Assembly (NCBI GenBank): GCA_001560915.1 | Contig: CP014214.1 | Span: forward strand, 1,302,001-1,366,000 | DNA: 64,000 nt | From: a methanogenic archaeon ISO4-H5 | GTDB taxonomy: Archaea > Thermoplasmatota > Thermoplasmata > Methanomassiliicoccales > Methanomethylophilaceae | Direction of reading: 5' to 3' | Part shown: in pieces, positions 33,334 to 48,109 of the stretch | Numbering within the stretch: the stretch's first letter is position 1 | How the letters are laid out: each line of letters opens with the position of its first letter | The notes under the pieces: generated by a model | The model's database searches: none | What the model was told of the DNA's origin: nothing | The model's input: the letters and a program-made list of their open reading frames with translations, nothing else | Program-made: the position numbers and the translations under genes

Positions 33334-34014
33334 ATGGTACAGCATGTTCACATCTGCCCTGTCGGATTCTATCCTGAACCGATACTCGCAGCAGTCGGGG
33401 CCCTGCCCGCAGACAAATACTATTTCCTATACAATGAGCACGAGGAGAGCCTCAAATGCTTGGAAGCGGTGAAGACGGCCCTGGCGGCAATCGGGCAGAA
33501 CAACAACATGGAGATGGATATCGACCCGTTCGATTACAGCGCGGTCGTCGGAACCCTCATGAAGATTCACCATGAGGAGAGACATCAGGACCCCGATACC
33601 CATTTCTACATCAATTTCACCAACGGCACCAACATCGTCGCGGGAGCGTGCTGCAGCGTATCGTACTTCATCGGTGCCACGCTGTACTATGTGATGCGTG
33701 ACGAGCCTGGATCGAATCTTTCAAAGACAGAACGTGTGAGGATTATTAAGACGCCGCGCATCCCGGACATAGAGAAGATGAAACCATTCGCAAAGGACAT
33801 CCTATCCAAGATTTGCGAATCGAAACTGGGGATAGAGATGCAGGCGTTATCCCTGTACATGCAATCTTCGCCGCAAAAACTCAACCACCACATCAACTCA
33901 TTCATCAGCAGCGGGCTGGTGGAGAAAACCAAGGACGGACGCAAGGTCGTTCTCGTGGCCACGGAGCAGGGAAAACTCCTATACTCGTGGATTGCAGAGG
34001 ATGCGGGATTCTGA
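33334..34014 (+). CDS. CARF-domain winged-helix regulator (Csa3 / DUF6293-like), copy 1
   Basis: The 226-residue protein has a Rossmann-like N-terminal domain (HVHICPVGFYPEPIL start, and NFTNGTN near 93, the CARF ligand-loop signature) and a C-terminal winged helix (about 145-226). CARF domains bind cyclic oligonucleotides or related signals in type III CRISPR and other defence loci. No CRISPR array or Cas gene is in the window. It is divergent from the MazF-like/helicase operon and may control it. A paralogue lies at 39591-40292. Confidence 0.82.
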   Translation: MVQHVHICPVGFYPEPILAAVGALPADKYYFLYNEHEESLKCLEAVKTALAAIGQNNNMEMDIDPFDYSAVVGTLMKIHHEERHQDPDTHFYINFTNGTNIVAGACCSVSYFIGATLYYVMRDEPGSNLSKTERVRIIKTPRIPDIEKMKPFAKDILSKICESKLGIEMQALSLYMQSSPQKLNHHINSFISSGLVEKTKDGRKVVLVATEQGKLLYSWIAEDAGF

Positions 34015-37936: not shown

Positions 37937-37958
37937 TATAGTCGGGAGTTTGGAGAGC

Positions 37959-39554
37959 ATGGTCATCGATCCCGAAGTCTACCGCTTGATCAACAAACGC
38001 AAGGATGACCCCATCTTCATGGATTTTCTCCTGAACCATTATTCTCAAATCGTAGATTCCAAAGAAGGTATGGATAAGATCTGCTATGCCCAGGAAATCG
38101 CACGTGTCCTAGCCAGATTTGCAATCCAAGAACGGGTCCTTGCAGAACATAGTGACCATCCCATAGACGAAGAAAAATACAATCGTTATTACAGGACAGC
38201 GTTATACATTATCAGAAAAGGCATTGATATCGGCATGAAGATGGATTACGAGGCTAACGTGATTGGGGGAAAACCACTGAATGTCTCATATAACTATCAT
38301 ATGGGCTGGGCCTATGTACAGTACTCTATGATTCTTGCCGAAAACTATCGTTATTTCGCTGCTATGGGTGCGATTGTAACTGCAGAGAACTATCTAGTCA
38401 ACGATATATATAAAATAAAAGCTGGAAACCGGTTGCAAGGGGCCATAGATCTAATAAAAAGTCTGCCGGATTACGATGCGAGCACTCACGGTCCGTTGAC
38501 AGACTTGACGCCTGAACAGGCTGATCGGAGGATACTTCATCTATTTGATAGCCTAGGTGAGGCGGTCAATGAAAAGAAACTTCGCATTTTGGATGAGGTC
38601 TACAAGAAAGTCCCCGATAAATACCGCTTCATGTATGCGGTTTGTATAGATGGCCTCTTGGATTATTTCAAAAAAAGAAACGAAAAAGATTTCTTGAAAA
38701 ATTATGGTAAAGTTGTTTTAGATATTCAGGAGGAATTCCCAGAAATACCAAAGAAATTCCTCGATCTGCCTGATCTTTCTCAAAAGAATCTCGCACACGA
38801 TGAAACCCAAGAAGAAAAAAATTATGCCCTGTGGATTGATGGTTGCCACCTATTCTTAAGCTACCTGGATTTCGTTCCTGACATAGAAAAACGTCTCCGA
38901 TATGAGTGTGATGACCTGGTATTCGATTTCCAAATTCCGGATCTCAACAACATAATGGAGGATGTGGTAGAAACCTACTCCCATTGCAGGTTCCAGTTTT
39001 ACATGGCAACGCAATTCAATAGTCCGATTGAAAAACTGGCATACAGCTTCAGTCCATTTAACAAACGCATTTACAATCAAGAATTGCTTCTGGACACCTA
39101 TCCCCGCCTGTACTCGATTTTGGATAAAATATCCCATATAGTGATGAAAATCTGTGACATTACGATAATGCCCAACGACGACGGATATACTCCTCAACCC
39201 TCGTATAATCTAATTGTGCAGGAAATTCGTAAAAATTCAAACGGAAACCCATATCTCCTTACTCTCTGTGAGATATTCGACGAGATCAATCCTCGCTACA
39301 TTTACAGGACACAGAAGGACGTGCCATTCTATACGATGCTCCCTGGAGCTGAGCATATGGATAGGATTAGACATCATATAATCCACTCGGGGATCATGCT
39401 TGACGCTGATAGAAAGGTCAAAAAATCAAACAAGATTGTCTGCCATATCTCCGGAACAGATTTCGCAATGAGATGCTTAAATCTCATCACCCTTGTCAAG
39501 GAAGCTATCATGAACACCTGCATGGCAATAGAATACAGAAATCGCCAGGAATGA
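37959..39554 (+). CDS. HEPN protein of the LA2681 type
   Basis: The 531-residue protein is largely helical and AT-rich in coding, unlike the housekeeping genes. Near residues 471-476 it has RHHIIH, an Rx4H motif in a DRIRHHIIHSGIM setting typical of HEPN domains of the LA2681 class. The N-terminal two-thirds may form helical repeats. HEPN domains usually cleave RNA. I prefer the ATG at 37959 over TTG at 37950 because GGGAG lies ten bases upstream of the ATG. It likely shares a transcript with the coiled-coil gene before it. Confidence 0.68.
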   Translation: MVIDPEVYRLINKRKDDPIFMDFLLNHYSQIVDSKEGMDKICYAQEIARVLARFAIQERVLAEHSDHPIDEEKYNRYYRTALYIIRKGIDIGMKMDYEANVIGGKPLNVSYNYHMGWAYVQYSMILAENYRYFAAMGAIVTAENYLVNDIYKIKAGNRLQGAIDLIKSLPDYDASTHGPLTDLTPEQADRRILHLFDSLGEAVNEKKLRILDEVYKKVPDKYRFMYAVCIDGLLDYFKKRNEKDFLKNYGKVVLDIQEEFPEIPKKFLDLPDLSQKNLAHDETQEEKNYALWIDGCHLFLSYLDFVPDIEKRLRYECDDLVFDFQIPDLNNIMEDVVETYSHCRFQFYMATQFNSPIEKLAYSFSPFNKRIYNQELLLDTYPRLYSILDKISHIVMKICDITIMPNDDGYTPQPSYNLIVQEIRKNSNGNPYLLTLCEIFDEINPRYIYRTQKDVPFYTMLPGAEHMDRIRHHIIHSGIMLDADRKVKKSNKIVCHISGTDFAMRCLNLITLVKEAIMNTCMAIEYRNRQE

Positions 39555-39590: not shown

Positions 39591-40292
39591 ATGATGCATG
39601 TCCATATCGCCTACGCGGGAAAAGTTCCGGACCCCACTCTGAATACAATCAAAGCAGTACCGGATGCCATCGACAGGGTAGTTCTGCTTTACAGCGTAAC
39701 GGACGATGGTGTTTTCGAACGTACCGCAGAGGAACTATCGGGCAAATTGGGAAATATGGGATACCTCTGTGAATCCAGAATCATCAACTCCTTCGATTTC
39801 CTGAATATCGTGGACACGATCTATGATGTTTTCGAGGAATACAAGAAACAGGATCGTAATGTAAAATTTTCCGTGGACATAACCAACGGAACTAATCTCA
39901 CTGCAGCGGCTGCATGTAATACGGCATTCTTCATGAATTCCGACGTTTATTACATGGGAGATAAACGCAGATTCCCCGAGAAATCATTAAGTGAACTCCT
40001 GATCGCCATCCCCTCTCCGAAAATCCCGGATGTGAAACGTCTGGGCGATTTATCTCTAGATATGCTGAGGTTCATCGCCGAGGAACAGGATCTCGGTCAC
40101 GAGGTATGCAACGTGGATGTCGCCAGGAAATTCGATATGTCCCCTCAGGCGATTATGTATCACATAAACAGACTCAGGGACGCAGGGGTCATCGATTTGG
40201 AAGATGCCTATACTCCCAAAGGAAAGATCGATAAACGCAGGAAAGCGATAAAGATCAGGCGTGAGGGAAGATTCGTCCTCAGATGGACTTGA
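39591..40292 (+). CDS. CARF-domain winged-helix regulator (Csa3 / DUF6293-like), copy 2
   Basis: The 233-residue protein matches copy 1 (33334-34014) in layout: N-terminal Rossmann-like CARF domain (MHVHIAYAG start, DITNGTN near 98) and C-terminal wHTH with SPQAIMYHINRLRDAG, ending in a basic segment. GTTATATCAT about 25 nt upstream gives a nearly leaderless start. It precedes the kinase and viperin genes and may regulate them. Two such sensors in 7 kb without CRISPR suggest a nucleotide signal from another source; this is inference. Confidence 0.82.
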   Translation: MMHVHIAYAGKVPDPTLNTIKAVPDAIDRVVLLYSVTDDGVFERTAEELSGKLGNMGYLCESRIINSFDFLNIVDTIYDVFEEYKKQDRNVKFSVDITNGTNLTAAAACNTAFFMNSDVYYMGDKRRFPEKSLSELLIAIPSPKIPDVKRLGDLSLDMLRFIAEEQDLGHEVCNVDVARKFDMSPQAIMYHINRLRDAGVIDLEDAYTPKGKIDKRRKAIKIRREGRFVLRWT

Positions 40293-40383
40293 TTTAATTT
40301 CCGTAATTATCAACTTCATCCATACTACTGTGCCAGATGACTGTTATCGTGTTTATTGTGAAACACAAATACTAAAAGTTATA

Positions 40384-40479
40384 TTTTTATTATAAATGAT
40401 TTTTACTTTATAATTCCAAAACGAACTTACCCTCATGAACACAGAAACCGCCCTGGTCAAAAAGTGCAGGTCTGCTAAC
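40384..40479 (+). repeat. Promoter plus 15-codon leader shared with the viperin gene (copy A)
   Basis: This 96-bp block (51 nt of promoter and the first 15 codons of the kinase gene) aligns without gaps to 42325-42420. I count about 71 of 96 positions equal. Both copies have a TTTATAAT box 28 nt before the ATG (40407-40414 here) and both proteins start MNTET..V.K.RSAN. The shared block suggests the two genes are turned on together. Confidence 0.8.
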
Positions 40480-41133
40480 AGGAAATACACCATCGGCGTA
40501 TTCGGAATCTCAAGGAGCGGAAAGGATTCGGCCATTGACGTCTTCGTCGACATAGCCCGGGAGAACGGTTACGAATTCACCCATATGTCCCCCATTGGGA
40601 TGATCCGTGAGAGACTGACGGGCAGAAGACTCAAGACGATGCCGGAATCGGAGAAGAGGCAACTGGTGGAAGAGGTGCGGGCTGAGATCAGAAAGGTCTC
40701 GGAGACCAATAACATCATCGTTGACGAACACTACTGCTTCCCCCACGATTTCGGAGGAGTTGTGTTGGAGGACGGATATTATGATGAGAAACTGCCCTAT
40801 GACATCATGAGCATTCCTAACTCTCCCACGAACTACGAAGTCGTGCTCCCTAGATTCGGCACGCAGTTCTATGATCTCGTGGCTGTGATGAAGATAGACC
40901 CAGACGCCATAATCGAACGTATGAGGAGATCTGAAGGATGCAAGAGGAACACAGTCGCAACCAGAGAGGATATCATACATTGGCAGCGGGCAGAGATGAT
41001 AGGGGTATACCATGATGCCCTGGGTCGCGGCATATTCCAATCTGAGGACTATATGAAAAATGCCGAGGCCATTTGGGGAGCTTTCGAGGAACTTGTCAAC
41101 GAAGACCGTTCACCCCAGCCCAATCACTTGTAA
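40435..41133 (+). CDS. P-loop nucleotide kinase-like protein
   Basis: The 232-residue protein has a 15-residue leader, then GVFGISRSGKDS (P-loop, about 21-32) and a DEHYCF segment near 104 that fits a Walker B/acceptor region. It resembles adenylate/cytidylate kinase-type folds but no exact family is recognised. It is a paralogue of the amber-interrupted kinase at 43532-44176. Nucleotide kinases are often found beside prokaryotic viperins, where they may phosphorylate the product or precursor. Its 3' end overlaps the ApeA-like gene's end by 10 nt (convergent). Confidence 0.75.
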   Translation: MNTETALVKKCRSANRKYTIGVFGISRSGKDSAIDVFVDIARENGYEFTHMSPIGMIRERLTGRRLKTMPESEKRQLVEEVRAEIRKVSETNNIIVDEHYCFPHDFGGVVLEDGYYDEKLPYDIMSIPNSPTNYEVVLPRFGTQFYDLVAVMKIDPDAIIERMRRSEGCKRNTVATREDIIHWQRAEMIGVYHDALGRGIFQSEDYMKNAEAIWGAFEELVNEDRSPQPNHL

Positions 41134-42269
41134 ACATAGGGCTTGTCTGCCTGGAAGTTATGTGGTCTGAAAATTCTCTCCATCAAACCATCACTCACAG
41201 GATTCCATCTGACGGTGTCAACCTTGTATGCGGCCTTATCCTCATCGCAGTATTCCAGTTTGTTGACGATATCCTCTATTTCCCTGTCCTTCACATAGAA
41301 CAGCTTCAGAATCAGGCATCTAGTAAGGTCGAATGCCATCGGTATGCATTCCTTGTCAAATACTTCATCCTTGCTTTTGTGGACGAGTAAACTGCGCTGG
41401 TAGTAAAGATATCCCACTTTCTTGTAGAGATTGGCCTGCTTTTTCCCTTTTACTACTCCGCCGTTACGTATCATACGAGAAACACTCTGCTTAATCCTCT
41501 CAGTTACACGGTTCCTGTTCTTTGACCATATCTCCGGGAATTGCTGAGCGAACAATTCCCATATCCCCGATATTGCTATGAATGCGGTTTCCACATCGTT
41601 GCATCTGTACGCATTCCTGTATAGATCGAGCATCCTTTTCGTTAGCATATCCTTGCTGCTCGGTTCCGGCCCGTAATTCAGCGGATAGAACTGGGTGTAC
41701 CACTCACGGAACTCCGAATAGAACTTTTGAAAATCCTTCTTCTCGGATTCACTCAGCGTGAACACGGGCAGAAATCTCCATAACGCATAGTTCGTCTCGC
41801 ATTGGTACATATCGTTTACGGCCACACCTCCTTCCGGAAGTACTCCGATTCCGAATCCTGCCCGGTTCGTTTTGAAGAGTCTGATGGCATCGATGAGACA
41901 CCTCTCCTCGTCCTCCCAGCTTTTATCGGTGTCCATTCTGAAGTATCTGAACTGCTGATACTCCGAACAGCATGTCCCATCGTCCTTCTTCTTCACGACG
42001 AATTCGCAGTAGATCGTACGGGCCATGGAGAGTGGAGCGAAAAGATGGTGGAAGAAATCATAGAGCGTGTCCACCAAAATCTCATCCCTGCGTTCGTTGA
42101 CTATCTTACCGTCAGGACCGCTGGCTCTGTTGTAGATGTAGGACATTCCGGTTTCCATGATCGGCTTCATGTCATACGGCGAAACGGTACCGTATTCGAA
42201 CGGCGGCAGATCCACGTCTAGAAGAGAATCGTCCATTCCGCTGCACAGTACGATGGCCGTGGTCTGCAT
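41124..42269 (-). CDS. ApeA-like HEPN protein
   Basis: The 381-residue protein has an N-terminal part of unknown fold and a C-terminal HEPN domain with RSLLVH (about 292-297), in the YYQRSLLVHKS setting typical of ApeA-type HEPN proteins (Rx4H). Such proteins act in anti-phage defence by degrading tRNA or other RNA. GTGATATAACC on the minus strand about 25 nt upstream fits a leaderless start at 42269. It lies between the kinase and viperin genes in the opposite direction, with the viperin promoter on its 5' side. Confidence 0.75.
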   Translation of the reverse strand: MQTTAIVLCSGMDDSLLDVDLPPFEYGTVSPYDMKPIMETGMSYIYNRASGPDGKIVNERRDEILVDTLYDFFHHLFAPLSMARTIYCEFVVKKKDDGTCCSEYQQFRYFRMDTDKSWEDEERCLIDAIRLFKTNRAGFGIGVLPEGGVAVNDMYQCETNYALWRFLPVFTLSESEKKDFQKFYSEFREWYTQFYPLNYGPEPSSKDMLTKRMLDLYRNAYRCNDVETAFIAISGIWELFAQQFPEIWSKNRNRVTERIKQSVSRMIRNGGVVKGKKQANLYKKVGYLYYQRSLLVHKSKDEVFDKECIPMAFDLTRCLILKLFYVKDREIEDIVNKLEYCDEDKAAYKVDTVRWNPVSDGLMERIFRPHNFQADKPYVYK

Positions 42270-42324
42270 AGGGGCAGTATGGCGTTATGGTTATATCACG
42301 GTTGGTAAAATAGCCAAAATTATC

Positions 42325-42420
42325 TTTTTATTATCAAAGAATTTTGCTTTATAATCTGAACACCAAATACCTATCATGAACACAGAAACTACCTCAGTCA
42401 GGAAATTCAGGTCCGCAAAC
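42325..42420 (+). repeat. Promoter plus 15-codon leader shared with the kinase gene (copy B)
   Basis: Second copy of the block at 40384-40479, ending in codon 15 of the viperin gene. TTTATAAT at 42348-42355 is the TATA box, 28 nt before the ATG, as in copy A. Confidence 0.8.
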
Positions 42421-43206
42421 ATCCACATCTACGGAAAATGCAACTACCGCTGCGAGCACTGTTTCGACAGGTGCCTCACCAAGAACTACATGAGGCCGTC
42501 CGACTGGGTTGACACCCTGACCTTCCTGAAGGAATACGGGGTGGAGAAGATCAACCTGGCCGGCGGGGAACCCACCCTCTATCCCTTCCTGGACCAGATG
42601 TGCTACCTGGTCAAGGGCATGGGCTTCAAGCTCTCCATCGTCAGCAACGGCTCCCTCATCACCGAGGACTGGATGGCTAGGATGGAGGGAGTCGTCGACT
42701 GGATCGGTCTCTCCATCGACTCCATCGATGAGGCGGACGAGATCCAGATCGGAAGGGGCAGGGGAGGCCACCTGGAGAACATCGTACAGGTCGCCGATAT
42801 GGCCCACCGGCACGGCATCAAGGTAAAGCTCAACATCACCGTGGTTAGGAGGAGTTGGATGAAGGACTTCAGACCCTTCATCGAGAAGGTTAGGCCAGAA
42901 CGCGTCAAGTGCTTCAGGGCCCTCACCCTGAAGAACGCAAACGACGACGTCCCCGACACCTGGTCCATCACAGACAAACAGTTCGAAGACTTCAGGCGCA
43001 GGCACGAGGACATCGGCTGCATCGTCTTCGAGGACAACGAGGACATGGTCTCCTCCTACGTGATGTTCGACCCCATGGGCAGATGGATGGTCGACAGCGG
43101 GTACGAGAAGAGGTTCATCTCCTTCGAGGTCCTCAGGAGGGAAGGGCTCGACCGGGAAGTGGATGTCGAGAAGTACTTCGGCCGCAACGCCGTCTACGAA
43201 TGGTGA
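42376..43206 (+). CDS. Prokaryotic viperin (pVip), radical SAM antiviral enzyme
   Basis: The 276-residue protein has the viperin pattern: CNYRCEHCF (Cys22, Cys26, Cys29 for the 4Fe-4S cluster), LAGGEPTLYP, LSIVSNGSLI, a NITVV segment, and the viperin C-terminal part (CFRALTLKNAN, RRHEDIGCIVFEDNEDM, SSYVMFDPMGRW) that separates viperins from MoaA-type proteins. Viperins convert CTP, GTP or UTP to 3'-deoxy-3',4'-didehydro nucleotides that stop viral RNA polymerases. The base used here cannot be read. Two P-loop kinase genes flank it, a common pVip setting. The first 15 residues match the leader of the upstream kinase. Confidence 0.9.
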   Translation: MNTETTSVRKFRSANIHIYGKCNYRCEHCFDRCLTKNYMRPSDWVDTLTFLKEYGVEKINLAGGEPTLYPFLDQMCYLVKGMGFKLSIVSNGSLITEDWMARMEGVVDWIGLSIDSIDEADEIQIGRGRGGHLENIVQVADMAHRHGIKVKLNITVVRRSWMKDFRPFIEKVRPERVKCFRALTLKNANDDVPDTWSITDKQFEDFRRRHEDIGCIVFEDNEDMVSSYVMFDPMGRWMVDSGYEKRFISFEVLRREGLDREVDVEKYFGRNAVYEW

Positions 43207-43526
43207 TTGGCTTGAAGTACAAACCGTACAAACCTGCCGAGGAGAACCTCGCCGTCGGTGACGTGAGAAAGTGCACGTTCAACGGAGTAGGGGTCGTCGA
43301 GACGTTCTATGTTGTTGTGATGGCGGTTTACCCCGGCCACATCGCAGTCAGGAAACTCCACAAGGACAACTGGGGAGCTACCCGGTATCTGATAAGGGAC
43401 GTGGCCCCGACCGGTCTCGAATACGCCATGTTCGTGGATACCAAGGATACAGAAATGCAGGAACAGATGGTCGGCCGCAAAACGGGAAGGATCTCGAAGA
43501 CAGACGTGAGGAACATAAGGAAGTGA
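43200..43526 (+). CDS. Small protein coupled to viperin
   Basis: The 108-residue protein begins with an ATG that overlaps the viperin stop region (ATGGTGA), so it is probably translated by coupling. The sequence (VGDVRKCTFNGVGVVETFYVVVMAVYPGH, ending in basic residues) suggests a small beta-rich domain. I do not recognise a family. It is followed by the amber-interrupted kinase after five bases, with an AAGTGA-type site. Its place between viperin and kinase suggests it belongs to the same antiviral unit. Confidence 0.65.
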   Translation: MVIGLKYKPYKPAEENLAVGDVRKCTFNGVGVVETFYVVVMAVYPGHIAVRKLHKDNWGATRYLIRDVAPTGLEYAMFVDTKDTEMQEQMVGRKTGRISKTDVRNIRK

Positions 43527-43531
43527 TTGAA

Positions 43532-44176
43532 ATGACAGGTCAGAACATTAGTACGCATTACAGGATAGGATTATTCGGAGTGTCGAGGAGCGGCAAGAAC
43601 TACACCATCGACGACTTCATCGGACTGGCGAAAGACAACGGGATAGAATTCGTCCACATGTCCCCCATGGACATGATCCGTGCTCGTCTCGGCAGCCGCA
43701 GACTGCGTGATATGCCAGACGATGAAAAACGTGCACTCGTGACAGAGGTCAGGGAAGAGATCGACCGCATCGCCAAGGACCACAACATCATCGTGGACGA
43801 ACACTTCTGCTACCCCTCCACATTCGGCGGGAAGAAGCTGGAAAACGGATACTACGACGAGAAGCTCCCGCACGACATCCTCCATGATATGAGGTACAAA
43901 GTGGATTACGAGGTGGTCTTCCCCCGTTACGAATCCTAGAAATACGATCTGCTCGCAGTGATGAGTCTGGACCCGGAAATCATCGTGGAAAGGTCCAGAA
44001 CCTCCGAGGGGGCGAAATACAATCCCTACGTCACCGCTGAGGAGATTGCAGAGTGGCAGAAGGCTGAGATAAGCGGGATCGCCAGGGAAAGCCAGGTCCC
44101 CGTCTTCCTGATAACCGACCCGCGTAAATCGGGTATGTTGCTGTGGAAGGCGGCCAGGACCGCCTTGTTCCACTGA
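43532..44176 (+). CDS. P-loop kinase paralogue with in-frame amber codon (possible pyrrolysine) at 43937
   Basis: Read through one TAG, the frame encodes 214 residues. P-loop GLFGVSRSGKN (about 13-23) and VDEHFCYP match the kinase at 40435-41133. The TAG is codon 136 and aligns with a Gln in the paralogue (PRFGTQFYDL against PRYES-TAG-KYDL). Similarity continues after it (LLAVMSLDPEIIVERSRTSEG region), with no frameshift. CAG to TAG is a single transition. In an organism with pyrrolysine decoding the protein may be full length with Pyl at 136; otherwise it is a nonsense pseudogene. A GGAAGTGA site precedes the ATG. Confidence 0.8.
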
Positions 44177-45286: not shown

Positions 45287-48109
45287 ATGACCTCTATCCC
45301 TCCGGCCGCCTTCCCGCTGAACGACATCTCCGCGGGCAGGATGGACCTGATTTATAACGATACGGAATCCAACAGGAAGGTTCTCACCACCCTCCAGAAG
45401 GAGATCTCCGACTGCGACAGATTCGATTTCTCCGTCGCGTTCATCACCAGGAGCGGCATGGCCTGCATCAATCAGCTGCTGGACAACACCAGGGATAAGG
45501 TCAAAGGCAGGATCATCACCACCGACTACCTCAACTTCAGCGAACCTGCCGCTCTCAGACAGCTCCTGAGGTTCTCAAACATTGAGGTTAGGATCTACTC
45601 CCGCCAGAACTTCCACACCAAAGGATACATCTTCCACAAGGGGAAGGAGACCAGTCTGATGGTGGGCAGTTCTAACATTACCCAGGATGCCCTGAACGTC
45701 AACAAGGAATGGAACATCTGGTATTCCACCACCGACTCCGATAACCTCTTCCTGGGGACCACAGTCAGCGAGTTCGAATCCATGTGGAAGCAGTCCGTCC
45801 CCCTCACCGAGGAATGGATCCAGGAGTACGAGCCGAGGCATCTCCGTTCCAAGATCGAAAGGCAGACCGAGCTGCAGGCCCGCAGGAACGACCCCGTGGT
45901 GATCACCCCCAACGAGATGCAGAAGGATGCTCTGGAGAACCTCTGCAAACTCAGGAACTCCGGTGCCGACAAGGCTTTGCTCATCTCAGCCACCGGAACC
46001 GGAAAAACCTATCTGTCAGCGTTCGATGTGAAGGAATCACAATCCAAGAAGGTGCTCTTTCTGGTTCACCGTGAACAGATTCTCGACGATGCCCGTGAGA
46101 GTTACAAGGATATCCTCGGTAACGGAATCAGGACCGGAAAGATCACCGGAATCTCCAAGGATTTCGATGCGGACTACATCTTCTCCACCATCCAAACGAT
46201 GTCCAAACCTGACATCCTGGCACATTTCAAACCAGACCATTTCGACTACATCATATGCGACGAGGCACACCACGCAGTTGCCAAACAATACAACAGCATC
46301 GTCGACTACTTCAGACCCAAGTTCATGCTCGGCATGACCGCCACTCCCGAGAGAATGGATTCCGGCGACGTTTTCAAGAGGTTCAACCACAACATCGCCT
46401 ACGAAATCCGTCTCCAGGACGCCCTCGAAAAGAACATGCTCTGTCCCTTCCACTATTACGGCATTACCGACATCAGCGTGGACGGGAGGCCCATCGAGGA
46501 CGATGAGGACTTCAACTCCCTGGTCTCCGAGGAGAGGATCAAACACATCATCGAGAAGATGGAGTTCTACGGTCACTCCGGCGACAGGGTAAAGGGCCTG
46601 ATCTTCTGCAGATCCATCGAGGAAGGCAGGGAATTATCCGTAAAACTCAACGAACACGGTCTCAGGACCCAATTCGTCTGCGGAAAGGATGATGCGGCTA
46701 CCAGGGAAAAGGCGGTTAACCTTCTCGAACAGGAGGACAAATCCACTGGATTGGATTACATAATTACCGTGGATATCTTCAACGAGGGTGTGGACATCAA
46801 ATCCGTCAACCAGATCGTGATGCTGAGGCCCACCCAGTCTTCCATCATTTTCATACAGCAGCTCGGACGCGGACTCAGGAAGAGGGCCCTGAACGGAGAG
46901 CTCAAGGAATACCTCGTGGTCATCGACTTCATCGGGAACTACAAGAACAACTTCATGATCCCCATCGCTCTCTCCGGCGAGCGTTCCGCCAACAAGGAGC
47001 ATCTCCGCAGGTATCTCATGAAGCAGACCATTCCCGGCTGCAGCACGGTGGACTTCGATCTCATCTCCAAGAAAAGGATCTACGATTCCATCAACCGCTC
47101 CACCGTGACCGACCTCATCAAGGGACAGTACTCCTCCCTGGTAAAGATGCTCGGCTACGAACCGACCATGACCCAGCTTGTCAAATCCTCGAGCATGGAC
47201 CCGATGGACATCATAAATCACTACGACAACTTCAACAACTTCAAGAGGGTCCTGAAACTGACCCATCACAACCTCGGGAAGGGGGAGGAACTCACCCTCG
47301 ATTACCTCTCATCCACCATACTGAACGGCAAAAGGCCCCACGAATTGGAGATTCTGAAGAACGTCATCTCCCACGGTTGCGTCGATTTTTCTGTAGTTAA
47401 AAATGAACTCGCGGACAAATACGGTATCGACTGTGACGAAGATTCGCTTCAATGTGCTATCGATGTTCTCGACAGCGATTACTCCAAGAGACTGAAATCA
47501 CCTCTCATCGAAATCAAAGAGGGTAAGGCTTACTGCACCCAGTATTTGAAGGATCTCCTCAGCAGAGATTACACGAAAGAATACGTCCTCGACATCGTCG
47601 ACTGCGGCCTCGAGATCTTCGACAGGAGATACAAAGAAGGATTCGACGGTTCCCTAAAACTCTACGAAAGGTACTCCAGGAAAGACGTCTGCCGTCTGCT
47701 GAACCTCGGAACCGAAGGAATCTCGAGCACAATCTACGGTTACGGAACCTACCGCGGCAAGTGTCCTATCTTCGTCACCTACAACAAGGACGCGAACATC
47801 AGCAAGAGCATCCAGTACAAAGAGGAGTTCACCGACAGACAGCACTTCAGCTGGATGACCCGCAGTAATAGGAACATCCGGAGCAACGATGTCGCCTGTG
47901 TTCTCGATTCCAACATAGAGAAATACTTCTTCGTACAGAAAGGAGACGATGACAGTTCCGATTTCTACTATCTAGGAAAGGTCACACCCCAAGATCCCAG
48001 GGAGACCACCATCGAGGGCAACAAGGGCGAGGCACTCCCTATCGTGAACATCAAATTGGTCCTCGAACAGCCAGTTGACGAGGGCATATACGAGTATCTC
48101 ACCAACTGA
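45287..48109 (+). CDS. PLD-like domain fused to SF2 DEAD/DEAH helicase (DUF3427 type)
   Basis: The 940-residue protein has an N-terminal phospholipase-D-type nuclease domain (FHTKGYIF near 108 and VGSSN near 127), an SF2 helicase core (SATGTGKT about 233-240, CDEAHHA about 325, MTATPERMD, QQLGRGLRK), and a C-terminal DUF3427-like region (about 640-940). This layout is known in bacterial and archaeal genomes and is linked to DNA processing or phage defence, though its role is unsettled. The remnant-rich spacer upstream (45083-45286) has no clear promoter. Later codons are more AT-rich (about 47380-47700). Confidence 0.88.
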   Translation: MTSIPPAAFPLNDISAGRMDLIYNDTESNRKVLTTLQKEISDCDRFDFSVAFITRSGMACINQLLDNTRDKVKGRIITTDYLNFSEPAALRQLLRFSNIEVRIYSRQNFHTKGYIFHKGKETSLMVGSSNITQDALNVNKEWNIWYSTTDSDNLFLGTTVSEFESMWKQSVPLTEEWIQEYEPRHLRSKIERQTELQARRNDPVVITPNEMQKDALENLCKLRNSGADKALLISATGTGKTYLSAFDVKESQSKKVLFLVHREQILDDARESYKDILGNGIRTGKITGISKDFDADYIFSTIQTMSKPDILAHFKPDHFDYIICDEAHHAVAKQYNSIVDYFRPKFMLGMTATPERMDSGDVFKRFNHNIAYEIRLQDALEKNMLCPFHYYGITDISVDGRPIEDDEDFNSLVSEERIKHIIEKMEFYGHSGDRVKGLIFCRSIEEGRELSVKLNEHGLRTQFVCGKDDAATREKAVNLLEQEDKSTGLDYIITVDIFNEGVDIKSVNQIVMLRPTQSSIIFIQQLGRGLRKRALNGELKEYLVVIDFIGNYKNNFMIPIALSGERSANKEHLRRYLMKQTIPGCSTVDFDLISKKRIYDSINRSTVTDLIKGQYSSLVKMLGYEPTMTQLVKSSSMDPMDIINHYDNFNNFKRVLKLTHHNLGKGEELTLDYLSSTILNGKRPHELEILKNVISHGCVDFSVVKNELADKYGIDCDEDSLQCAIDVLDSDYSKRLKSPLIEIKEGKAYCTQYLKDLLSRDYTKEYVLDIVDCGLEIFDRRYKEGFDGSLKLYERYSRKDVCRLLNLGTEGISSTIYGYGTYRGKCPIFVTYNKDANISKSIQYKEEFTDRQHFSWMTRSNRNIRSNDVACVLDSNIEKYFFVQKGDDDSSDFYYLGKVTPQDPRETTIEGNKGEALPIVNIKLVLEQPVDEGIYEYLTN

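Follow-up and report, generated by a model that had tools for sequence, protein, structure and literature searches.

In ISO4-H5, a member of the Methanomassiliicoccales, a rumen order of methanogens, the promoter, start codon and first codons of a viperin gene recur at the 5′ end of a gene for an NMP-kinase-like P-loop protein. This second gene (kinase 1, 40435-41133, + strand) is, with a probability that we put at about 0.8, a 5′-capture gene, in which the viperin promoter, the ATG and 15 codons have been fused to a kinase copy; we know of the capture in a single genome. In the mechanism envisaged here, these viperin sequences would have been joined in frame to a diverged, viperin-associated NMP-kinase-like gene, and kinase 1, transcribed as a unit of its own, would thereby have come under viperin's control. 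Coordinates refer to the window, that is, the whole 64-kb stretch analysed, which lies within a single-contig genome of 1,937,883 bases.

The shared 5′ block and its direction

The 5′ ends of the kinase 1 and viperin genes can be aligned gap-free over 96 positions (40384-40479 against 42325-42420), of which 71 are identical, within a wider region of similarity in which 84 of 114 positions (74%) are identical (40367-40480 against 42308-42421). The TATA box TTTATAAT begins at 40407 in kinase 1 (40407-40414, + strand) and at 42348 in viperin, 28 nt upstream of the ATG both times (40435 and 42376), and 11 of the first 15 residues are shared by the two proteins (MNTETALVKKCRSAN in kinase 1, MNTETTSVRKFRSAN in viperin). 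The gap-free match and the equal spacing given in the preliminary description are thus confirmed. Homology between kinase 1 and a second kinase gene, kinase 2, begins at 40486, and the junction therefore lies about 6 nt or less 3′ of the block.

That the block was copied, as had also been proposed, is equally well borne out. The best alternative offset on either strand of the window gives fewer than 52 matches in 97, the next-best match among 288 ORF starts compared is 39/97, and a genome-wide search recovers the second copy of the block with E = 6.2e-14 and no third copy, the one further hit being a 19-nt match with an E of 1.25. The block is AT-rich, which might have favored either a chance similarity between promoters or a promoter class common in the genome. 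Yet the 68 nt upstream of the ATG match at 49 positions, a value attained by none of 20,000 first-order Markov pairs (maximum 41), and the coding portion matches as well. Furthermore, the 29-nt element TTTTTATTATNAANGANTTTTNCNTTATA within the block occurs at only two sites in the genome at ≤3 mismatches, against none for the reversed control. Both are exact, one upstream of kinase 1 (40384-40412, + strand) and the other upstream of viperin (42325-42353, + strand). Together, the uniqueness of the two sites, the coding match and the Markov control refute an origin in chance or in a common promoter class, the likelihood of which we regard as negligible.

A family-wide search found viperin in 7 of 102 genomes, that of ISO4-H5 included. 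Four of the others encode close relatives (G011, 93% identity; G089, 92%; G069, 81%; G068, 79%), and all four have the exact promoter element and some form of the leader, their proteins starting with MNTETTSVRKFRSAN in G011, MKTETTSVRKFRSAN in G089, MNSESVPCRKFRSAN in G068 and MSTECDTTRRFRSAN in G069. The two distant viperins (G052, 48%; G028, 47%) both lack the element. Kinases are rarer: with kinase 1 as query they were found in 3 of the 102 family genomes, and a profile search of 147 genomes of the order listed seven, three of which, in G059, G135 and G137, are longer P-loop proteins that match weakly; a fourth, in G089, is a 29-residue remnant. In G137 (L055:332-3103) and G135 (L056:138-2876) these distant kinase proteins are encoded between radical-SAM-like and phosphoribosyltransferase-like genes, as named from their translations. 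Four kinases can be read to their start, and the leader is present in kinase 1 only; kinase 2 begins with MTGQNISTHYRIG, the G011 kinase with MKSDEGKTYNRVG and the G028 kinase with MISMAEITSLRVA. The G089 remnant, taking its GTG as the start, begins with MQSNIGNKFLRVG and is likewise leaderless. All three leaderless kinases and the remnant stand within viperin operons.

Because the close viperins carry the leader and the other kinases do not, the sequences compared indicate that the block originated with viperin and passed to the kinase. The reverse, a leader that originally belonged to the kinase and was then acquired by viperin, has nothing in its favor except the symmetry of the match; with the element and a form of the leader in 5/5 close viperins and the leader in 1/4 kinases, it is close to refuted, and we give it hardly any weight. 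Over the 114-nt block, kinase 1 matches the G011 viperin at 95 positions and its own neighbor at 84, while the two viperins share 101. The block is therefore nearer to the G011 viperin, and the present neighbor is not its exact source.

The G011 kinase as query had no match among phages and plasmids, and the kinase pattern matched 27 times in viral contigs with no relative among the matches; in genome contigs it matched 67 times, with one relative. Relatives of the viperin occupy 47 viral loci; the three best of them (32-34% identity), which were read, lack a leader of this kind, their match starting only with residue 13.

The leader peptide and the captured start

The preliminary description placed the leader outside either enzyme fold. 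For viperin this does not hold: Ser13, Ala14, Asn15 and His17 are invariant in all seven aligned viperins and align with SVNYH, where the matching PDB viperins begin (inspected for 3 of the 14 matches), and residues 13-17 form a predicted strand, the first of the protein, in which the SAN of the leader is included. Residues 1-8 are variable and predicted with low confidence. In the model of kinase 1, pLDDT stays below 50 over residues 1-13, and residues 19-23 make up the first strand.

It had further been suggested that the peptide is either a common regulatory leader or a tag, for localization or for a partner, that pairs the two enzymes. A functional leader of this kind, acting in localization, partner binding or cotranslationally to bring kinase 1 and viperin together physically, would be in keeping with the 11/15 identical residues and with the NG86 estimates for the leader against the ISO4-H5 viperin (pN 0.13, pS 0.65); the excess of synonymous over non-synonymous change would allow a degree of constraint on the peptide. 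Against it, the leader is absent from the operon kinases, and so the conservation at protein level that had been taken to mark a tag extends to no other kinase. Kinase 2 and the G011 kinase are paired with viperin in an operon all the same, which is the finding that the preliminary description had named as its refutation, and on this comparison with relatives the tag was rejected. No further gene with the leader exists in the genome beyond kinase 1 and viperin, the frame at a third MNTET site (C1:946867) reaching a stop after 9 codons. The variability and low confidence of viperin residues 1-8 argue in the same direction, as does the fact that SAN belongs to the first strand of viperin, since a separate copy carried by kinase 1 cannot serve the same role. 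The changes on the kinase branch include F11C, S7L and T6A; a count by hand gives about five non-synonymous and three to four synonymous changes in the 15 codons, short of significance (Fisher p = 0.09, from the hand counts and rounded site numbers). We therefore consider a functional leader improbable. The regulatory half of the suggestion stands, a shared regulatory region being the best reading of the block, and the 15-residue peptide on kinase 1 appears to be a passenger rather than a tag.

Why the codons should have traveled with the promoter can be understood from the start of kinase 1. Its open frame of 232 codons contains no stops, and between codon 1 and codon 51, which lies past the P-loop, there is no in-frame ATG, GTG or TTG. 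The captured ATG, within the 15 codons at 40435-40479 (+ strand), is therefore the only usable start of these three types, and since it lies inside the captured piece, the event is read as a capture of promoter plus start. No Shine-Dalgarno-like stretch was found before the ATG; with the TATA box 28 nt before it, this suggests an mRNA that has no 5′ leader or almost none. The usual archaeal TATA-to-start spacing fits a leaderless mRNA. Leaderless genes are, moreover, described as abundant in archaea (PMC3160421). In a leaderless mRNA the promoter is inseparable from the start codon, and the codons that follow are carried along; promoter, ATG and first codons would thus constitute one portable initiation unit, and wherever mRNAs are leaderless, the move of a promoter is expected to drag a foreign peptide with it.

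Locus, promoter element and candidate regulator

The viperin locus is in a defense-island setting. A gene for an LA2681-like HEPN protein (37950-39554, + strand; 2.7e-44) is followed by one for a CARF-wHTH protein (39591-40292, + strand), the end of which lies 92 nt upstream of the kinase-1 element. The captured viperin-type promoter (40367-40434, + strand), which matches the promoter of the neighboring viperin at 49/68 positions and that of the G011 viperin at 58/68, then leads into kinase 1, the end of which overlaps the tail of a 381-aa gene on the opposite strand (41124-42269, − strand). This gene is divergent from viperin and without a family match in Pfam, PADLOC or PHROG, and in both G011 and G089 a similar gene neighbors viperin. 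The viperin promoter, the source type (42308-42375, + strand), is present in the four other close viperins and precedes the viperin gene (42376-43206, + strand). A small ORF (43200-43526, + strand), with no Pfam match above cut-off and no PADLOC or PHROG match, occupies the interval between viperin and kinase 2 and has a counterpart in the corresponding position in each of G011 and G089. Kinase 2, the leaderless operon kinase, follows (43532-44176, + strand). Downstream of the viperin locus, PADLOC recognizes a type IV methyl-directed restriction enzyme (45287-48109; 2.2e-212). In G068, viperin is soon followed, close to the end of the contig, by a CRISPR-like array of 9 repeats spaced at 66-68 nt (L020:9280-9853).

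The element occurs exactly in 5 of the 102 family genomes, at six sites, namely the five viperins and kinase 1. Allowing ≤3 mismatches adds a seventh site, with 3 mismatches in G039, for a total of 6/102 genomes, against two sites for the reversed control. Between the viperin promoters of ISO4-H5 and G069, 31/31 positions agree in the element stretch and 16/35 outside it; the corresponding values are 28/31 and 18/35 for ISO4-H5 and G068, and 27/31 and 17/35 for kinase 1 and G069. As judged from these alignments, the element is constrained and its flanks are not. A dyad operator was considered and dropped, the symmetry of the element being reached by 285 of 2000 column shuffles and thus not significant.

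Less surely, the shared element may be bound by the adjacent CARF-wHTH protein, in which a CARF domain (CARF3 in PADLOC, 1.1e-83 over the full length) is followed by a wHTH (HTH_24, 24.7 bits against a cut-off of 21.9). A search of 147 genomes gave 11 with any match at 1e-20, that of ISO4-H5 included, and orthologues at 70-75% identity occur in exactly G011, G089, G068 and G069. Thus, the five genomes that have the element are also those in which a close CARF-wHTH gene adjoins viperin or its promoter copy (5/5). The CARF-wHTH and viperin genes are neighbors, however, and this co-occurrence is therefore not independent evidence. A second, distant CARF-like wHTH gene is also present in the window (33334-34014; HFX_2341_N, 2e-13; 29% identity to the first). 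The candidate resembles the regulators Csa3 and MM_0565 in being archaeal and combining CARF with wHTH, and differs from them in its link to viperin rather than to a cas operon. MM_0565 is described as a dimeric DNA binder, overexpression of which induces transcription of a cas1-solo gene (PMC7465815). Among the papers listed, no title links viperin with CARF.

The enzymes and the route of the capture

The protein encoded at 42376-43206 is a prokaryotic viperin, with ddhNTP synthesis and an antiviral role as its predicted functions: it matches Radical_SAM (7.7e-22) and, over residues 14-259 of 276, the PADLOC pVip model (4.9e-70), and the cysteines of its radical SAM CxxxCxxC motif, Cys22, Cys26 and Cys29, are invariant in 7/7 viperins. 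The assignment of kinase 1 draws on an AAA_17 match below cut-off and on its predicted fold, which is of the NMP-kinase (adenylate/thymidylate kinase) type. Foldseek matches it to adenylate kinases of archaea, with a best E of 1e-7 and a TMq of 0.55; the model used has a mean pLDDT of 76.5 and was built from 4 sequences. All four kinases have the P-loop GxSRSGK[DN], with Asp or Asn at the last place as against the Walker A consensus GxxxxGK[ST]; the GKD form occurs in phage dNMP kinases. Kinase 1 is predicted to phosphorylate nucleoside monophosphates and so to supply the NTP substrate of viperin. PADLOC models match neither kinase 1 nor residues 1-135 of kinase 2, kinase 1 does not match the PADLOC profile for pVip-kinase fusions (PDLC02905), and the PHROG comparison was uninformative for kinase 1 as well as for the kinases of G011 and G028. 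As in PADLOC-DB, where the pVips include kinase-associated and kinase-fused classes, the viperin here adjoins a nucleotide-kinase-like gene; the differences are that the present kinases have no PADLOC match and that kinase 1 has a captured viperin promoter and start, for which we saw no precedent among the papers listed.

The capture may bear on what becomes of the operon kinase. In kinase 2, an in-frame TAG (43937-43939) stands where the G011 kinase has Leu, and the G089 operon kinase is truncated after about 29 residues (L018:3414-3690), the stretch that follows reading like what we take to be an integrase C-terminus. ISO4-H5 is reported to use pyrrolysine, with 46 genes containing an in-frame amber codon (PMC5011839). 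The TAG may therefore be a nonsense mutation of recent date or, with read-through, a codon for pyrrolysine. The TAG and the G089 truncation fit kinase 1 taking over from the operon kinase.

As to the route, the capture could have come about either through an internal deletion affecting another viperin operon or through a graft by recombination. In the former, which is one way to a 5′ capture and not its contrary, a unit of CARF-wHTH gene, promoter, viperin, ORF and kinase would have been duplicated or acquired, and a single deletion that took out the small ORF along with the body of viperin would have fused viperin codon 15 to the kinase. The viperin promoter directly follows the CARF-wHTH gene in G069 and G068, the place that kinase 1 has here; in G011 and G089 the divergent gene, of 379-383 aa, lies between. 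The G089 kinase was likewise cut by rearrangement. Yet the distances after the CARF-wHTH gene differ, and the viperin similarity stops at the junction with no trace of the viperin body. Furthermore, kinase 1 and kinase 2 share only 104 of 214 residues (pS 0.71), as against 153 of 214 between kinase 2 and the G011 kinase, a divergence far in excess of that of the promoter block: outside the element, the kinase-1 and G011 viperin promoters still agree at 28/35 positions, and dS between the ISO4-H5 and G011 viperins is 0.48. The kinase bodies are much older than the block, and hence either the block was added after their split or kinases were exchanged between operons; a decayed operon would need such an exchange, or an origin in another lineage. 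We consider this route a real possibility, somewhat short of even odds.

By whichever route the viperin 5′ end was captured, the two enzymes would probably be turned on together, and co-expression would enable the kinase to provide the nucleotides for ddhNTP synthesis by viperin, or to remove them. A wider scheme, which we advance tentatively and rate as rather unlikely, has viperin as the core of a small regulon, in which a nucleotide-sensing CARF-wHTH protein would act at a 29-nt operator and a second kinase would have been recruited by capture of operator, TATA box and start, replacing a dying operon kinase. Kinase 1 itself points to an operator that can be put to the test and to a candidate for the sensor in the induction of viperin in archaea. 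In vertebrates, RSAD2 and CMPK2 are gene neighbors, and their co-regulation is interferon-driven, in place of the copied promoter seen here. This pair of viperin and NMP kinase, described as acting together in antiviral defense (PMC12889620), is among the closest known parallels to the present one. Viperin and a nucleotide kinase are thus paired in prokaryotes and vertebrates alike, and if the capture is true, their pairing in ISO4-H5 would have been renewed by regulatory capture and not by operon linkage.
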